Positions 19,707 through 33,738 of a DNA stretch of 36,823 nt are shown here, piece after piece. Each line of letters opens with the position of its first letter. Positions within the stretch are counted from its first letter, which is position 1. Under the pieces are notes generated by a model that made no database searches, was not told where the DNA came from, and saw only the letters and a program-made list of their open reading frames with translations. The stretch spans positions 1-36,823 of IMG/VR virus record IMGVR_UViG_3300037961_001224, one strand, 5' to 3'. The position numbers and the translations under genes were made by a program. The DNA is from a virus.

Positions 19707-20143
19707 ACTGCCGCCTCTAGATCAAAGTCAGGTGTGTACTCAACTACGTTAGAGATAACCATGCGACGTAGGGTAGGTGAACGACCCTTCTTCTTCATGT
19801 ACTCCCAGTCGTAGAAACCAACAAGACACTTGGCTTCAGAACCATTAGCAACGATAACACCCATGTCAGGGTTGTCATCCTCAGACAAAGGAGTACGTCC
19901 CTTGATGAGAATCTCTTCACCGTCAGGATGGAACGCACGGTACTTGTTGTTTGACTTACACGTGATGTAGTAACCACGGTCGTCGCCCTTGTTGTTTACC
20001 TTCAAGCCCATGTCTTCGAGTGCTGTTACTGCCTCGTCTGACAACAGAGCTAGGTCAACTGTGTACTTATCAGCAAGTTGATTCTTGCTAGTAAGGCTAG
20101 GCCAGTAAAGCTGGCACTTCAGGTTGATGTTTGCTTCACTCAT
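19703..20143 (-). CDS. Single-stranded DNA-binding protein, gp2.5-like
   Basis: A 146-residue protein. The pattern NINLKCQLYWPSLTSKNQLA ... KYTVDLALL near the start, 'YITCKSNNKYRAFHPDGEEI' in the middle, and 'ANGSEAKCLVGFYDWEY' match OB-fold ssDNA-binding proteins of T7-like marine phages. The acidic end (DFDLEAAV) is shorter than that of T7 gp2.5. It would coat ssDNA and contact polymerase and helicase. It is first in its transcription block: an AGGAG site lies before the ATG, and a palindrome plus promoter-like element lie just upstream. Confidence 0.75.
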   Translation of the reverse strand: MSEANINLKCQLYWPSLTSKNQLADKYTVDLALLSDEAVTALEDMGLKVNNKGDDRGYYITCKSNNKYRAFHPDGEEILIKGRTPLSEDDNPDMGVIVANGSEAKCLVGFYDWEYMKKKGRSPTLRRMVISNVVEYTPDFDLEAAV

Positions 20144-20157
20144 AGGATCTCCTATTA

Positions 20158-20173
20158 ATTAATCCAGATTAAT
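20158..20173. promoter_or_regulatory. Palindromic operator-like site, copy 1
   Basis: ATTAATC-CA-GATTAAT, 16 bases with perfect seven-base arms. It lies between the ssDNA-binding protein start and a TATAAT box (- strand) that it directly abuts, so a bound protein would cover the transcription start. The same core recurs at 27599 and 28464. Confidence 0.7.
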
Positions 20174-20207
20174 ATTATACCACACTTTTACAGAATACGC
20201 TAATGCG
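20174..20207 (-). promoter_or_regulatory. Extended -10 promoter-like element upstream of ssDNA-binding protein
   Basis: On the - strand: CGCATTAGC, 12 bases, then AGTGTGGTATAAT, which includes an extended -10 (TGGTATAAT). The -35-like part is far from TTGACA. The same two blocks with the same 12-base spacing recur at 23977-24010. It overlaps the DNA polymerase stop codon. Confidence 0.6.
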
Positions 20208-21888
20208 TTTCGGCCCAACTACTACCAACGCGGTATTCTCCATCCAGTGGGCAGTTAAGGTTGAAGGTATCGCCAGCCTGAATGATTGCCTGTACAGCGG
20301 CTTTGCCTACGTACTCAGCATCCTCAGGATGACACTCTATTTGCCACTCATCGTGGACTTGTGCTACTAGCTTGAAGTCAACATGCTCTAGTAATTCATA
20401 CAGGTGTATCACTGCCTGTTTCATTACAACTGCACCCGCTCCCTGCAGTAGTGTGTTCAATGCAGCATGAGCAGAACGAACACGTAACCGTCTCCCGTCC
20501 AGCCCGTCTAGGAATCCAGACCCTGCTTGCATTGCTGTATCCTCTCGTAGTTTAGCCAAGGCAGGTGTGTTCTCAAGGAACTTATCTCTTAGCTCACCTC
20601 CTTTTCTTGCGTTGCCTCCCACTACAGATCCTATCTTGGCGTTGCCAGCACCATACAAAAACGCATAGATGAATGTCTTAGCTTGCGCCCTTGTAGTCAG
20701 CCCAGCCGCATGCTGGTTAGCCGTGTGTATATCACCCTCTAGGATCTCCTTCGTATACGCTTCATCATCCATGTAATGGGCGAGCATACGTAGTTCAAGA
20801 CCAGATGCATCAGCACCCACGAGGACACGGTCAGGAGGAACAACAAAAAGGCTACGACACTCAGTACCATAATCTGCATACACTGCAGGAACTTGTGCAA
20901 GATTAGGATTAGAATGAGCCATACGCCCCGTAACTGCCCCGATATGTTTAACCCTCCCATGTATACGTCCTCCGTTCTCTGCCTTGATCCACGACAACAC
21001 CTGCGAGTGTCGCTTCTGTAGCGTCAGATATTCCAAAACCATCTTCGCCTCAGGCACGTGTAGGTTCTTCTTCAGAGTAGACTCATCCACCTTGGGCTTG
21101 CCTGATGGTGTCTTCTCTTTCCATACAGCACCTCTCTGAGTCAGTCTCTCAGCTATCTGCTGACGTGACCCTACGTTAAAGTGCTGGTACTTCAAAGGCA
21201 ACGGCTTACCTGTTGTCTTGTGATACCTCTGCTCTTCTGCAATGGGTGGGAATACATTCTGTAACGCTGCCTCTATCCCCAACATCTTAGTCTCAAGCTG
21301 ACGTTCGAGTTGCTTTGCACCAGTAAGATTGAAAGCAAACCCATTCTCTTCTTGATCTCTGCATATGTGTGCAACAGCATGTTCAAGGTACACACTGGTA
21401 TCGGTGAAGTGATACATCTGTAGTTGCATGCACAGTGTTTCGTACAACCTCTCTGTCACCGATACATCGCGCATACAGTACTGGATCATCGCTTCAGACA
21501 ACTGACTCCAATCATCATGATCACCCTTGGGGAAACGTAACTTCTCACCCCACGTGGCTAGACTGTGACCACCTTGTACGTCTGGATGGAACAGCCTCGA
21601 CATCACCAGCGTATCCAGCACACGTTCAGGATGTACCCGAATGTCCCATAGCTTTTCCAGCACAGGTCCGTCAAAGCCTATGTAGTTGTGACCGCATACG
21701 TGACCACCCCTAGCTAGTTCCTCGAACAGTGACTCCCTACAGGTATGGAGAAAGTGATCCTCGTTTGGTCTCTTTGTCACCACGCAGTGTATTACCGATG
21801 GCTGGAGACCATCCGTTTCTATATCCAAGAACACTATATTCGTAGTAGGCAAGGTCCAGTTCTTCTCGCTCTGTGAGTTCTCTACCAT
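20200..21888 (-). CDS. Family A DNA polymerase with 3'-5' exonuclease
   Basis: A 562-residue replicative polymerase of the T7 gp5 type. Exonuclease motifs: 'VFLDIETDG' (D22, E24), 'GHNYIGFDGPVL', and 'QYCMRDVSVTERLY'. Polymerase motifs: A 'VGADASGLELRML' (about 357-369), B 'RAQAKTFIYAFLYGAG' (R400, K404, Y408) and C 'VAQVHDEWQIEC' (H512-D513-E514). The residue equivalent to E. coli Phe762 is Tyr (Y408), as in T7. It is shorter than T7 gp5 (704 residues). It starts inside the stop of the preceding zinc-binding gene, and its stop lies within the promoter-like element of the next block. Confidence 0.95.
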   Translation of the reverse strand: MVENSQSEKNWTLPTTNIVFLDIETDGLQPSVIHCVVTKRPNEDHFLHTCRESLFEELARGGHVCGHNYIGFDGPVLEKLWDIRVHPERVLDTLVMSRLFHPDVQGGHSLATWGEKLRFPKGDHDDWSQLSEAMIQYCMRDVSVTERLYETLCMQLQMYHFTDTSVYLEHAVAHICRDQEENGFAFNLTGAKQLERQLETKMLGIEAALQNVFPPIAEEQRYHKTTGKPLPLKYQHFNVGSRQQIAERLTQRGAVWKEKTPSGKPKVDESTLKKNLHVPEAKMVLEYLTLQKRHSQVLSWIKAENGGRIHGRVKHIGAVTGRMAHSNPNLAQVPAVYADYGTECRSLFVVPPDRVLVGADASGLELRMLAHYMDDEAYTKEILEGDIHTANQHAAGLTTRAQAKTFIYAFLYGAGNAKIGSVVGGNARKGGELRDKFLENTPALAKLREDTAMQAGSGFLDGLDGRRLRVRSAHAALNTLLQGAGAVVMKQAVIHLYELLEHVDFKLVAQVHDEWQIECHPEDAEYVGKAAVQAIIQAGDTFNLNCPLDGEYRVGSSWAETH

Positions 21889-22124
21889 TGGTCTTCATCT
21901 CCAAGTTCTGTTCCTGAGTAACTATCCAGTTCCCCATCTTCGACATCGTATGATTCCTCCATGTCTGATAAATGTGCATAGTCTAAGTTGCCTTCAATGG
22001 TAACATCATCTTCGATTAGAAATCTACTGCAGTTACCACACAAGTCAACGAACTCCCCCGACCCAGTGAATCTACGTGTTAGTTCGTAGTCATTGAGTAT
22101 CTTATCACAAGCAACGCATCTCAC
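21882..22124 (-). CDS. Small zinc-binding protein between helicase and polymerase
   Basis: An 80-residue protein with two Cys pairs (CVACDKIL near residue 3 and LCGNCSRFL near 29), forming a probable zinc ribbon, then a strongly acidic tail (DMEESYDVEDGELD). It starts with GTG overlapping the helicase stop (GTGA) and ends overlapping the polymerase ATG by seven bases. Its position suggests a replication-accessory role; no function is demonstrated by the sequence. Confidence 0.75.
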   Translation of the reverse strand: MRCVACDKILNDYELTRRFTGSGEFVDLCGNCSRFLIEDDVTIEGNLDYAHLSDMEESYDVEDGELDSYSGTELGDEDQW

Positions 22125-23707
22125 TCCATTATCTCCGTCAATCGACCTGAGTCCTTATTATACAGCAGCGAGCAGGATGGTCCAGTCATGCCACTGAATC
22201 TGTTCTTCAGCACACGCACGTTGGTAGTGTTACGTACCATCTTGTCCTCTGCCTGAGCATTACGTTCCAGACCAAGGACAATGTCAGACAACTGAGCAAT
22301 AGACGCACTACCCCGTAGCTGTCCAAGGCTGGTGACTGCACCGTCCTCATGTCCTTTTCCTTCTGGTCTACGTAGGTGACTAACAACAAACATACATATC
22401 TCCATCTCCTGACAGAACATACGTAGCTTGGTCATGATCTCATCGATAGCCTTACGCTCATCACCGTTAGCCTGATCCGACACCAGTATCGATATGTGGT
22501 CGAGGATGATGTACCTCACACCCAGCACCTTGACCTGATAACGGAACCTAGCCAGCACGTTTTCTATCTGGTTTGATCCGAACGAATCCCATAGGACAAC
22601 ACGGTCATCTAGATCTAACGTATTAAATACATACTCTACCTCATCAGGGGAGTAATCACATCCGGGCAAGTGTATTGGTTTGTTGATCTGTAGACCCACT
22701 AGTCCACGAGCAGTACGGTCAGGTGTCTCCTCAAGGAAAGCTAGACCTATCCTCTCGTTAGTCTGTGACGCGATGGAGAAGACTAGCTCACGCATGAACG
22801 TAGACTTACCCAGCCCAGATCCAGAACAGATAGTAACTAACTCAGTCGGTCTGATGCCAAAGGTCATATCATCCAGTCCCTTGTAAGGGTAGCGTACCTC
22901 TGCCTCCATCAGTGGCTTCTTCATTGCCTCACGGAGTGACCCTATCATCACCATGCCGTCAGGTGTGTACACCTTCGCAGCCCACCAGCGTTTGACAAAG
23001 TCATCCTTGTCTGCATTCATCAGGTAGTCGGAGGCATCCTTGTGTTCACCGTGTTGATAGATCTTCGCCTTACCACCAAACAGATCTGCACACTCATGTG
23101 CCGCCTTCTTCCCATGCTCATCATTGTCATAGCAGAAGATGATGTTGTCGAATAGATCGAGGAACTCATACGCCCTACGACAATCCGCCGCCGCACCCTG
23201 CGCCCCATTACGAATGGACACTACGGGATACTTATCACCAAACATTTGGTAAGCAGAGAGCGCATCTATCTCACCCTCCACCACGGTTATGTATTGACCA
23301 CCCGAAGGAAAGAGATGCTGACCGAATAGACCTGCACGTTTCCAGTCCCCTTCGATACTGAACTTCTTATCAGGTGTCCGCTTCTTCACTGCAGTCAACT
23401 CCCCATCTGGGGTGTAGTATCCGAAGTGTACCTCGTCACCACACAAGGTGGTGGAGTACCTCTCCATTGTACGTGCATCGAGACCCCTGTCCTGTAAGCT
23501 CCTAGATTGCCCTCTAAGCTCGACTGTTTTAACCCTAGGGTTAGGTACTCGATAGTCGTTAATGTCGCTCACAGAGCCTCCTGCGCCGTCTGGTGAGGGG
23601 GTAAACGTAGCACATGCGAAACAATAGCTAGACCCATCCTCATTGTAGGACAACGCATCACTAGATCCACAATCATTACACTTCTGGTGAAGCTCCACGA
23701 AAGCCAT
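22121..23707 (-). CDS. DNA primase-helicase, T7 gp4-like
   Basis: A 528-residue bifunctional protein. An N-terminal zinc-binding domain has C10xxC13...C29xxC32. The TOPRIM primase core shows 'VVEGEIDALSAY' (E144, D148) and 'FCYDNDEHG' (D194, D196). The RecA-like DnaB-type helicase domain has Walker A 'SGSGLGKST' (295-303), Walker B 'YIILDHISIL' and later 'VVSHLRRPEG'. It primes and unwinds DNA for the polymerase downstream. I prefer ATG 23707 (AGGAGG seven bases upstream, TGATG overlap) to the TTG one codon earlier. Length matches T7 gp4 (566 residues) well. Confidence 0.95.
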   Translation of the reverse strand: MAFVELHQKCNDCGSSDALSYNEDGSSYCFACATFTPSPDGAGGSVSDINDYRVPNPRVKTVELRGQSRSLQDRGLDARTMERYSTTLCGDEVHFGYYTPDGELTAVKKRTPDKKFSIEGDWKRAGLFGQHLFPSGGQYITVVEGEIDALSAYQMFGDKYPVVSIRNGAQGAAADCRRAYEFLDLFDNIIFCYDNDEHGKKAAHECADLFGGKAKIYQHGEHKDASDYLMNADKDDFVKRWWAAKVYTPDGMVMIGSLREAMKKPLMEAEVRYPYKGLDDMTFGIRPTELVTICSGSGLGKSTFMRELVFSIASQTNERIGLAFLEETPDRTARGLVGLQINKPIHLPGCDYSPDEVEYVFNTLDLDDRVVLWDSFGSNQIENVLARFRYQVKVLGVRYIILDHISILVSDQANGDERKAIDEIMTKLRMFCQEMEICMFVVSHLRRPEGKGHEDGAVTSLGQLRGSASIAQLSDIVLGLERNAQAEDKMVRNTTNVRVLKNRFSGMTGPSCSLLYNKDSGRLTEIME

Positions 23708-23892
23708 CAATGCACCTCCTGATTATTACTAAAACGAGAAAGGTAACGAGCCTTAAGTTGCTCATCCTCCAACGCTTCAAACTCCATCGCAAAAAGATTA
23801 AACAACATGTTCATTGCCTCCATGTAGTTGATGTTATACATATGATCTTCAGTCAACTCTTCAATCATACGAGTACGTTCTGCTTGTTCCAT
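23707..23892 (-). CDS. Small helical protein upstream of primase-helicase
   Basis: A 61-residue acidic helical protein (MEQAERTRMIEELTEDHMYN ... FEALEDEQLKARYLSRF). GGAGG lies seven to eight bases before the ATG at 23892. Its stop overlaps the helicase start (TGATG). It is the first gene behind the promoter-like element at 23977 and a long inverted repeat. The family is unknown. Confidence 0.7.
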   Translation of the reverse strand: MEQAERTRMIEELTEDHMYNINYMEAMNMLFNLFAMEFEALEDEQLKARYLSRFSNNQEVH

Positions 23893-23909
23893 GTTACCTC
23901 CCAATGTAG

Positions 23910-23953
23910 AAGTACTATGTATTATTAATACTTAATACTAATACATAGTACTT
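23910..23953 (-). repeat. 15-base-arm inverted repeat in the leader of the primase operon
   Basis: The arms AAGTACTATGTATTA (23910-23924) and TAATACATAGTACTT (23939-23953) are perfectly complementary. They enclose a 14-base loop made of two direct TTAATAC units. It lies between the -10-like element and the ribosome site, so the transcript would carry a stable A/U-rich hairpin; at DNA level it could also be an operator. Confidence 0.85.
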
Positions 23954-23971
23954 ACTGTATAGACTATATAG

Positions 23972-24085
23972 TTAGTAGTATACCACACTTCTTCGCTTTT
24001 TGCTAATGCGATTGTTGTCAGTATTACCTCTTGATTTACTGCGCGGTTTGTGCGTCTTAACATATCGGCGTGTATTCCTTCCCAT
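23972..24085 (-). CDS. Tiny very basic protein, 37 residues
   Basis: The ORF begins MGRNTRRYVKTHKPRSKSRG, is rich in Arg and Lys, and ends KKRRSVVYY. AGGAG lies seven bases before its ATG, an ideal site. It overlaps the 3' end of the sigma-like gene in another frame by 29 bases. The 3' half coincides with a promoter-like element, which complicates its interpretation. It could bind nucleic acid; otherwise unknown. Confidence 0.5.
   Translation of the reverse strand: MGRNTRRYVKTHKPRSKSRGNTDNNRISKKRRSVVYY
23977..24010 (-). promoter_or_regulatory. Extended -10 promoter-like element upstream of the primase operon
   Basis: On the - strand: CGCATTAGC, 12 bases, then AGTGTGGTATACT, containing TGGTATACT. 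Same blocks and spacing as at 20174-20207, while the 12-base spacer is unrelated. It would start a transcript for the block beginning at 23892. Confidence 0.6.
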
Positions 24086-27656: not shown

Positions 27657-27685
27657 ATTATCTCAAATAGGAATAATGGTGTCAA
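27657..27685 (-). promoter_or_regulatory. Sigma70-type promoter for the small-gene operon
   Basis: On the - strand: TTGACA (27685-27680), a 17-base spacer, then GATAAT (27662-27657), one mismatch from TATAAT. It sits just past the terminator of the preceding gene, so it should restart transcription of the leftward arm. Confidence 0.75.
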
Positions 27686-27727: not shown

Positions 27728-27750
27728 AAAAAAACCGCCCGAAGGCGGTC
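27728..27750 (-). terminator. Intrinsic terminator behind the first leftward gene
   Basis: On the - strand: ACCGCC, TTCG loop, GGCGGT, then a run of seven T. It lies 26 bases beyond the stop at 27776 and separates that gene from the rest of the leftward arm. Confidence 0.92.
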
Positions 27751-27775: not shown

Positions 27776-28357
27776 TTATTCGGCGTCGTTGTGAAGCTGA
27801 ATCGATACCTCTGCGAGATAGTGAGCGATTTCAAACTTCGTATGCCCGTTATCGTATGCCTTCTGCAAGAATTCAGAGAACAGATGACCGATAGGGCTGG
27901 CATCATTCGCTGTTGGCTCGCTGGATTCAGACTCCGACGCTACTTCAGCATCGCTTGCGACATCGTCCGCCTTAGGTATTGCCAGCGCTTCGTATGCTGT
28001 CTTCAGCGACGTCGCATAGCTAACGGCGTGAGACATGACGGCGATACCGTCCTCTACTGTCTGGATCTCGTGATAGTCGGATAACTTTTTATCCAGATTC
28101 GCCGCTACCTTTACCAATCGCATAACCTGTGAGGCTTGTACCTTCGCGGATGATTCCTCGTTACCCGCGTCGATGTACTGCGAAATGATGCTAGCGCGTA
28201 GTGGCTTAAGGTCCGCCTTAGTAATGCCAGACTGCGCTGCCTTGATTACCTCGTTACCAACTTTCTCAAGGGTAGTTAGTCGCGCCTTAGCTACTGCGTT
28301 GTCCTCTTTGATCATTGCCTTAGCGATTCGTGTACCTAATGTTTCGATATTTGTCAT
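27776..28357 (-). CDS. Helical acidic protein, first gene of the leftward arm
   Basis: A 193-residue protein of unknown family. Start chosen at 28357 (MTNIETLGTRIAKAMIKEDN) with AAGGAGAA upstream; the longer in-frame start at 28462 runs through the palindrome-proximal leader. It is helical with Lys/Ala/Glu periodicity, then a low-complexity acidic Ser/Glu/Ala stretch (about 143-160), and an amphipathic C-terminus (HLFSEFLQKAYDNGHTKFEI). As the promoter-proximal gene with its own terminator it is probably made in large amounts early. DNA-binding or host-takeover roles are possible but not shown. Confidence 0.75.
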   Translation of the reverse strand: MTNIETLGTRIAKAMIKEDNAVAKARLTTLEKVGNEVIKAAQSGITKADLKPLRASIISQYIDAGNEESSAKVQASQVMRLVKVAANLDKKLSDYHEIQTVEDGIAVMSHAVSYATSLKTAYEALAIPKADDVASDAEVASESESSEPTANDASPIGHLFSEFLQKAYDNGHTKFEIAHYLAEVSIQLHNDAE

Positions 28358-28463
28358 GGTTATGTTCTCCTTTGAACTATTTACCAAATGAATATGCCGT
28401 GCGTCATTGCCCGACCCCTTGAGTATCGTCGATTTCGGGATACCGGTCAAGTGACCTACCAAG

Positions 28464-28778: not shown

Positions 28779-28807
28779 TTGACAAATCTAAAAAAGTATG
28801 CTATAAT
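28779..28807 (+). promoter_or_regulatory. Consensus sigma70 promoter of the rightward arm
   Basis: TTGACA (28779-28784), a 17-base spacer, TATAAT (28802-28807), with an extended -10 TG (TGCTATAAT). Both hexamers match the consensus fully. It should drive the terminase-portal operon. Confidence 0.92.
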
Positions 28808-29640: not shown

Positions 29641-30893
29641 TGGATTTAAATATAGAACTACTGCCTTGGCAACAAGAAGTCTGGGCCGATCCAACAAGAT
29701 TTAAAATAGTAGCTGCTGGACGACGTACTGGAAAGTCTAGATTAGCAGCGTGGATGTTAATTGTTAACGCATTGCAAGCGGAAAAAGGCCATGTATTTTA
29801 CGTCGCACCTACTCAGGGACAAGCCAGAGACATCATGTGGTCCACCCTTCTCGATCTCGGGCATGATGTTATCAGTGGTAGTCATGTTAATAATCTTCAA
29901 ATTAAGCTTATTAATGGAGCCACTATCAGTCTCAAGGGAGCCGACCGCCCCGAAACAATGCGCGGAGTTAGCCTCAAGTTCTTAGTACTTGATGAATACG
30001 CAGACATGAAGCCAGAGGTCTTTGAGCAGATTCTGAGACCCGCCTTGGCTGACCAAAAAGGATGTGCAATGTTTATAGGCACACCTATGGGAAGAAACCA
30101 TTTTTACGAACTATACAAATATGCGGAACTGGGAGACGATGAAACTTATAAAGCGTGGCACTTTACTTCTTACGATAACCCAATTCTTGATTCGTCTGAA
30201 ATCGACATTGCTAAAAAGTCTATGTCATCTTATGCGTTTCGTCAAGAATTTATGGCGTCGTTTGAAGCGCGTGGTTCAGAAATGTTTAAAGAGGACTGGA
30301 TCTCTTTTAGCGACGACGAACCTGAAATAGGAGATTATTACATTGCCGCAGACTTGGCAAACTACTTGGACCCTACCGCCACCAAAAAAAGTAAAAACGC
30401 AAAAGCAGACGAAGCAGCAATTGCAATTGTTAAGGTTAATTCTCACGGTTGGTATGTTGATAATATTATTCACGGAGTCTGGACAACCGAAGAGACCGCT
30501 TCCAAAATATTTCAGGCCGTTAGAGATTACCGTCCCATTTCCGTTGGTATCGAAAGAGGTATATCTAGGAACGCAATAATGTCGCCATTACTTGACTTAC
30601 AAAAACGCTACGGTATATTTTTTAGAGTAGAAGAGTTAAGTCATAAAAATAAAACTAAAACAGATCGTATTATGTGGGCATTGCAAGGACGATTTGAAAA
30701 CGGACAGATTACACTAAATAGGGGAAGCTGGAATAGTAAATTTCTTGATCAACTATTTCAGTTTCCCGACCCATTAACCCATGACGACTTGGTAGACGCA
30801 TTAGCTTACGTTGACCAGTTGGCAAATGTGGCTTACGACTACGAATACGAAATCGAAGACCACGAAATCTTAGACGTAGTAGCAGGATACTAA
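29640..30893 (+). CDS. terL: Terminase large subunit
   Basis: A 417-residue DNA-packaging motor. The ATPase domain has Walker A 'AAGRRTGKS' (25-33) and Walker B 'FLVLDEYAD' (about 114-122), then a coupling motif region 'MFIGTPMGRNHFY'. The C-terminal nuclease domain shows 'YYIAADLANYLDP', 'VGIERGISRN' and 'DDLVDALAYV' with the expected acidic residues. It cuts concatemers and pumps DNA into the prohead through the portal encoded next. It is a short member of the family, complete by motifs. Confidence 0.95.
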   Translation: MDLNIELLPWQQEVWADPTRFKIVAAGRRTGKSRLAAWMLIVNALQAEKGHVFYVAPTQGQARDIMWSTLLDLGHDVISGSHVNNLQIKLINGATISLKGADRPETMRGVSLKFLVLDEYADMKPEVFEQILRPALADQKGCAMFIGTPMGRNHFYELYKYAELGDDETYKAWHFTSYDNPILDSSEIDIAKKSMSSYAFRQEFMASFEARGSEMFKEDWISFSDDEPEIGDYYIAADLANYLDPTATKKSKNAKADEAAIAIVKVNSHGWYVDNIIHGVWTTEETASKIFQAVRDYRPISVGIERGISRNAIMSPLLDLQKRYGIFFRVEELSHKNKTKTDRIMWALQGRFENGQITLNRGSWNSKFLDQLFQFPDPLTHDDLVDALAYVDQLANVAYDYEYEIEDHEILDVVAGY

Positions 30894-33460: not shown

Positions 33461-33713
33461 GAAAGGTGCAGCACTTAAAAAGTGGTTTAAGGAAGAGTGG
33501 GTAGACGTTAAAACAGGTAAGCCGTGTGGTCGTAAGTCTGCAAAAAAAGGTAAATCTAACCGTCCTTATCCTTCTTGCCGTCCTAAAGCTGTCGCCGCTA
33601 AAATGACTAAAGCTGAAAAAGCATCTTCCGCTCGTCGCAAAACTGGACCCGCTAGAATTAAACACGCTGTTACTGCATCAGGCCGTCGCAGAAAAAAGAC
33701 AAGAAATGCTTGA
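33441..33713 (+). CDS. Small basic protein, DUF5872-like
   Basis: A 90-residue protein starting at GTG 33441. 'LKKWFKEEWVDVKTGKPCGR' followed by 'RPYPSCRPKAVA' is the pattern of DUF5872-type proteins. The remainder is Lys/Arg/Ala-rich (KMTKAEKASSARRKTGPARI) and resembles histone-tail-like sequence. Its end overlaps the -35 box of the next promoter. Possibly a virion or DNA-condensing protein; not shown. Confidence 0.78.
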   Translation: MAVRKSKKGAALKKWFKEEWVDVKTGKPCGRKSAKKGKSNRPYPSCRPKAVAAKMTKAEKASSARRKTGPARIKHAVTASGRRRKKTRNA

Positions 33714-33738
33714 CAAATGCATAAAAGTATGATATAAT
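33710..33738 (+). promoter_or_regulatory. Consensus sigma70 promoter of the capsid operon
   Basis: TTGACA (33710-33715), a 17-base spacer, TATAAT (33733-33738), with extended -10 (TGATATAAT). It is nearly a copy of the promoter at 28779, sharing AAAAGTATG just before the -10 and an A+T-rich start region after it. It drives the scaffold-capsid genes. Confidence 0.92.

Follow-up and report, generated by a model that had tools for sequence, protein, structure and literature searches.

Two leftward promoter-like sites among the replication genes of an uncultured phage are best explained as host-sigma70 extended -10 promoters

Introduction

Does a phage with T7-like replication genes carry a promoter class of its own? 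The question is raised by a bipartite motif, CGCATTAGC-N12-AGTGTGGTATAMT, of which the window analyzed here (the whole virus record, 36,823 bases) holds two exact copies, both on the minus strand, at 23977-24010 and 20174-20207. The initial annotation proposed that these copies could represent a phage-specific promoter class, in which a recognizable extended -10 is combined with an upstream block that is not a sigma70 -35, and connected them with a sigma-region-4-like protein encoded nearby. Our analysis points to a different answer: judged from the sequence and its conservation, both sites are most likely ordinary extended -10 promoters of host sigma70, with a weak -35, that drive replication genes.

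Results

The genes around the two copies are T7-like replication genes transcribed leftward, encoding a primase/helicase, a family A DNA polymerase, an SSB-like protein, an exonuclease and an endonuclease (Table 1). The SSB-like protein has no match in Pfam or PHROGs, and no DNA-level match to 14000-36000 was found in the phage collection. When the whole window was searched, both copies of the motif were confirmed as exact, no further copy with up to three mismatches was detected, and 100 dinucleotide shuffles yielded no match. This shuffle null overstates the significance of the motif, because its right halves are the usual extended -10 of the phage and its left halves are mostly coding. The left block, CGCATTAGC, occurs a third time by itself on the plus strand (30797-30805), and with up to one mismatch it has 18 matches in the window where about 7 are expected.

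Table 1. Features of the window discussed in the text (promoters are candidates recognized from sequence)
Feature	Position	Strand	Remarks
SSB-like gene, 146 aa	19703..20143	-	33% identity to a Pelagibacter phage HTVC115P protein annotated as ssDNA-binding
Candidate promoter before SSB-like gene	20174..20207	-	weak -35, 18-base spacer, extended -10
CGCATTAGC block, copy 1	20199..20207	-	overlaps last codons of DNA polymerase, ACG CAT TAG (Thr-His-stop)
DNA polymerase, family A	20200..21888	-	T7-like replication gene
DNA primase/helicase	22121..23710	-	T7-like replication gene
Small ORF, first gene after primase-site promoter	23707..23892	-	probable ATG start at 23892, GGGAGGT ahead
AT-rich leader, promoter to next gene	23893..23976	-	21-nt inverted repeat 23910-23930/23933-23953
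Small basic ORF, 37 aa (MGRNTRRYVKTHKPRSKSRG...)	23972..24085	-	ATG at 24085; overlaps end of sigma-like gene
Candidate promoter before primase genes	23977..24010	-	weak -35, 18-base spacer, extended -10
Helix-turn-helix protein like sigma70 region 4.2, 68 aa	24057..24263	-	Pfam Sigma70_r4, E 1e-10; GTG start
TTGACA-17-GATAAT promoter, with TG	27657..27685	-	conserved in relatives
Sigma70 promoter TTGACA-17-TATAAT, TATG ahead	28779..28807	+	conserved in relatives
Sigma70 promoter TTGACA-17-TATAAT, with TG	33710..33738	+	conserved; carries GTGTGGTATAATAT box in some relatives

When the two sites are read as sigma70 promoters, each element finds a counterpart. At the site in front of the SSB-like gene (the SSB site), the -10 hexamer TATAAT (20179-20174, 6/6 matches) is preceded by TGTGG (20184-20180) and, at an 18-base spacer, by TTAGCG as the -35 (20203-20198, 3/6). 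At the primase site the corresponding elements are TATACT (23982-23977, 5/6), TGTGG (23987-23983) and, at the same spacer, TTAGCA (24006-24001, 4/6), and a generic promoter scan also listed 24006-23977 as a sigma70-type site. The extended -10 is as recognizable as had been proposed, and is conserved in relatives; with an 18-base spacer the upstream block does read as a weak sigma70 -35, contrary to the annotation, and many relatives have TTGGCA (5/6) there. In Gram-positive bacteria the extended motif of promoters stretches to -17, as TRTG, and a -35 that matches at three or more of six positions accompanies most TGn promoters (PMC2613000).

Relatives were collected by scans of public viral contigs, giving 80 loci by primase, 47 by motif and 80 by sigma-like protein, and were grouped by primase identity (93-100%, 84-85% and 79-80%). 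Because several loci represent one and the same contig, haplotypes, which are still related by descent, were used for statistics. The extended -10 TGTGGTATAMT stands before the SSB-like gene in all 95 loci, the one exception in form being CATGG in the L041 haplotype, and GGTATAAT is kept in 95 of 95, nearly always as TGTGGTATAAT. Before the primase genes, 102 loci retain the -10 as TGTGnTAnAnT, the 79-80% group included; the sequences for this conservation profile were chosen with that same pattern, which favors the -10, and an unfiltered listing agrees.

These loci also bear on the idea that the motif has no promoter function and is conserved through coding alone, which the initial annotation had named as an outcome that would undo its proposal. 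The left block is indeed coding at both sites, and the 37-residue ORF holds in frame both the second CGCATTAGC block (R-I-S) and the primase-site -10 (S-V-V-Y). However, the SSB-site -10 is located past the stop codon of the DNA polymerase and is kept in every locus, and the primase-site -10 persists in distant relatives without the 37-residue ORF, which is conserved as a protein in the two closer groups, is absent in the distant group and has no match in NCBIfam. Coding alone is thus an extremely unlikely explanation, and conservation of the extended -10 at both sites, also where no ORF overlaps it, supports the reading as promoters.

The search of related genomes upstream of the primase and SSB-like genes, which the annotation had suggested, recovers the extended -10 at both but not a constant CGCATTAGC block. 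Among the window and the relatives carrying both sites, the identical 9-mer is found at both in only 3 of 40 haplotype pairs, and the block is absent at distant primase sites; the activator box near -30 that promoters of the T4 middle type share is therefore not seen. At copy 1, relatives have ACG, ACT, ACC or ACA followed by CAT or CAC, always Thr-His-stop and with synonymous changes only (ACN CAY TAG). At the primase site they have ATTAGC, ATTGGC, GGTGGC, GGTGCC or GCCGCC, and unrelated sequence in the distant group. As the mark of a class, CGCATTAGC is not supported: it is coding at both sites, varies with the code and is missing at the primase site in more distant relatives, and the same -10 box is found with a consensus TTGACA elsewhere. 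A bipartite phage-specific class was rejected on this poor conservation and coding overlap.

What the two blocks do share is shorter. Compared between sites in the same genome, the columns of CGC (-28 to -26) agree in 22-41% of haplotype pairs and those of ATTnGCA in 57-97% (32% at the variable n), and the 9-mers agree in register at a mean of 4.92 of 9 positions (1.05-3.73 when the register is shifted). A short core is therefore shared beyond chance and the whole block is not. This core, approximately ATTRGCA, amounts to a weak sigma70 -35 (TTAGCA or TTGGCA) 18 bases from the -10. Scored against TTGACA, with the sigma70 preferences of the host assumed, the -35 match at spacers 16-18 averages 3.56/6 at one site (control spacings 1.2-3.1, random 2.48) and 3.80/6 at the other (control spacings 2.2-2.8, random 2.56), which counts for sigma70 promoters at both. 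Two observations stand against the ordinary-promoter reading: the in-register ATTnGCA core, being beyond chance, might be bound by some protein other than sigma70, and the GCCGCC found at the primase site in some close relatives is unlike any -35.

The phage also has promoters with consensus or near-consensus elements (Table 1), and these link the two kinds of -35. In three relatives (L134, L128 and L058) the counterpart of the promoter at 33710 is a perfect TTGACA...AAAAGTGTGGTATAATAT, with the same box as the SSB site. Since the SSB-site box here lies behind TTGACA, a single promoter idiom with stronger and weaker -35s describes the phage better than two classes. No RNA polymerase family, the phage single-subunit type included, was detected among the ORFs scanned, which included every ORF >560 aa of a record that may be incomplete, and this counts for transcription by host RNA polymerase.

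Several further features accompany these promoters. A strong terminator-like hairpin on the minus strand (27733-27750, GACCGCCTTCGGGCGGTT then a T run) follows ORF 27776-28462 and lies just before the leftward TTGACA promoter at 27685. Short inverted repeats, TTAATCTGGATTAA and ATAGGAGATCCTAT, surround the start of the SSB-like gene (20143-20173), where relatives carry TTAACTGGAGTTAA; they are possibly a site controlling this gene. In the window as in relatives, few 80-base stretches are as rich in AT as the leader downstream of the primase-site promoter, and by analogy with T7 one possibility is that it could serve as a transcription-primed replication origin.

We then turn to the 68-residue protein itself. 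Its Pfam match covers positions 19-49 of the 50 in the Sigma70_r4 profile, which is the 4.2 part only, and there are weak matches to sigma C-termini and to Tfx-type regulators (NCBIfam tfx). The AlphaFold model (mean pLDDT 74.8, with low-confidence ends) has helices at 14-21, 25-42 and 44-57, comprising region 4.2 and a C-terminal helix without region 4.1. The protein was rejected as a sigma factor of the sigma70 family, which requires region 2 and a complete region 4. A structure search gave no match at E <= 0.001, with sigma region 4 chains among the best-ranked; the named phages of the phage collection gave no match, and the genome collection only weak ones, 39-61% identical over short stretches, in bacterial genomes. 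By titles, a literature search found no paper on the protein or on the promoter. A second group of contigs (L139-L174) encodes the same small sigma-4.2-like protein (MTHQEIAD...) with no match to this primase.

If this protein bound CGCATTAGC and stood in for region 4 of sigma70 at the -35, in the manner of MotA on T4 middle promoters, the two sites would form a phage-specific middle class. The geometry, an element near -30 plus an extended -10, is that of T4 middle promoters (PMC2988021), the protein matches region 4.2 and a C-terminal helix, and its gene lies directly upstream of one motif copy. Yet at least eight versions of the recognition helix occur in relatives (RQMVRI, RTTVRA, RERVRQ, GERVRM, RESVRN, SETVRN, VVKVRI and RQRVVQ), whereas the SSB-site block is constant within each clade, and no covariation between helix and block was seen among the relatives. 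The primase-site block is lost in distant relatives that retain the protein, and the coding nature of CGCATTAGC at both sites also speaks against such a class. Distant homologues of the protein occur in viral contigs without a match to this replication module, and none of the 13 inspected has such a promoter nearby, so they were discarded as carriers of the same promoter. In one relative, L008, the sigma-like gene is truncated yet both promoters are intact, with the caveat of a possible chimera. The conservation evidence thus argues against a role of the protein tied to CGCATTAGC, the link drawn in the annotation is not supported, and a MotA-like middle class appears very unlikely.

The L008 junction is an observation in its own right. 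At ~509-620 the sigma-like gene breaks off after ELGIS and runs into the small basic ORF, the two meeting at a shared ATTAGC; sequence upstream resembles the 84-85% group and sequence downstream the 93-100% group, so that either a natural recombinant or an assembly chimera is conceivable.

The protein might instead target RNA polymerase, or -35 elements at large, so that promoters dependent on a -35 are weakened and extended -10 ones such as these two favored, much as AsiA blocks -35 promoters and spares TGn/-10 promoters (PMC2613000). Both kinds of promoter are present, with consensus TTGACA at 28779, 33710 and 27685 and a weak -35 at the two motif copies, and both the DNA-contact helices and the C-terminal helix of the protein are sigma-like. 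However, region 4.1 is missing from it, and helices H1 and H2 of that region make part of the contact with the beta-flap (PMC2988021); the TTGACA promoters here are also extended -10 promoters that might escape the switch. We consider such a general switch unlikely. It is similarly doubtful that the free-standing protein, which two groups of viral contigs encode, reprograms the RNA polymerase of the host through competition at the -35 or on the enzyme, with a shift to extended -10 promoters such as these two.

Discussion

The reading of both sites as ordinary host-sigma70 promoters suggests a straightforward mechanism. From what the sequence, its conservation and its overlap with coding regions show, and from the block and the sigma-like protein not covarying, we infer that transcription would start at both sites and that host RNA polymerase of the sigma70 type would suffice to read them as internal leftward promoters. 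Recognition would occur mainly through the extended -10 (TRTGn plus TATAMT), touched by sigma regions 2.4 and 3, with the weak -35 (TTAGCA or TTAGCG at an 18-base spacer) taking a minor share. A division of labor is plausible, in which the primase genes would be fed by one promoter and the genes of the SSB-like protein, exonuclease and endonuclease by the other; both would probably supply extra transcript to a leftward arm with a further TTGACA promoter upstream (27657-27685). The additional identity of the left blocks, the CGC before ATTAGC, would be incidental, stemming from the polymerase end at one site and from the small basic ORF at the other. Of the class proposed in the initial annotation, promoter-like sites with a conserved extended -10 before the primase genes and the SSB-like gene remain; its definition by CGCATTAGC and its tie to the sigma-region-4-like protein are not supported.

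As ordinary promoters, the two sites help to annotate a family of uncultured phages that seemingly relies on host RNA polymerase, and they illustrate how coding sequence that overlaps a promoter can make a short motif look like a new class. The 68-residue protein could matter more: should it indeed alter the polymerase of the host, the phage would have a simple means of takeover, a switch built from a fragment of sigma itself.

Among known systems, the closest likeness is to the sigma70 extended -10 (TGn/-10) promoters such as galP1 and lambda Pre (PMC2613000), which likewise join TRTGn to a good -10 hexamer and match the -35 weakly (3-5/6). The present sites, known from sequence, differ in their 18-base spacer, and the coding overlap at both is a peculiarity of this phage. 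T4 middle promoters (MotA box plus -10, with sigma appropriation; PMC2988021) are similar in having an element near -30, a -10 with TGn and replication genes downstream, and no phage RNA polymerase was found here among the ORFs scanned. Unlike in T4, the phage family does not conserve the upstream element, and a scan of its proteins against Pfam and PHROGs, which took in some of the small ORFs, yielded neither a MotA nor an AsiA homologue. Finally, the 68-residue protein resembles sigma70 region 4.2 and Tfx-type proteins in its helix-turn-helix, its Sigma70_r4 match and its weak tfx match, but it is free-standing, without region 2, 3 or 4.1.
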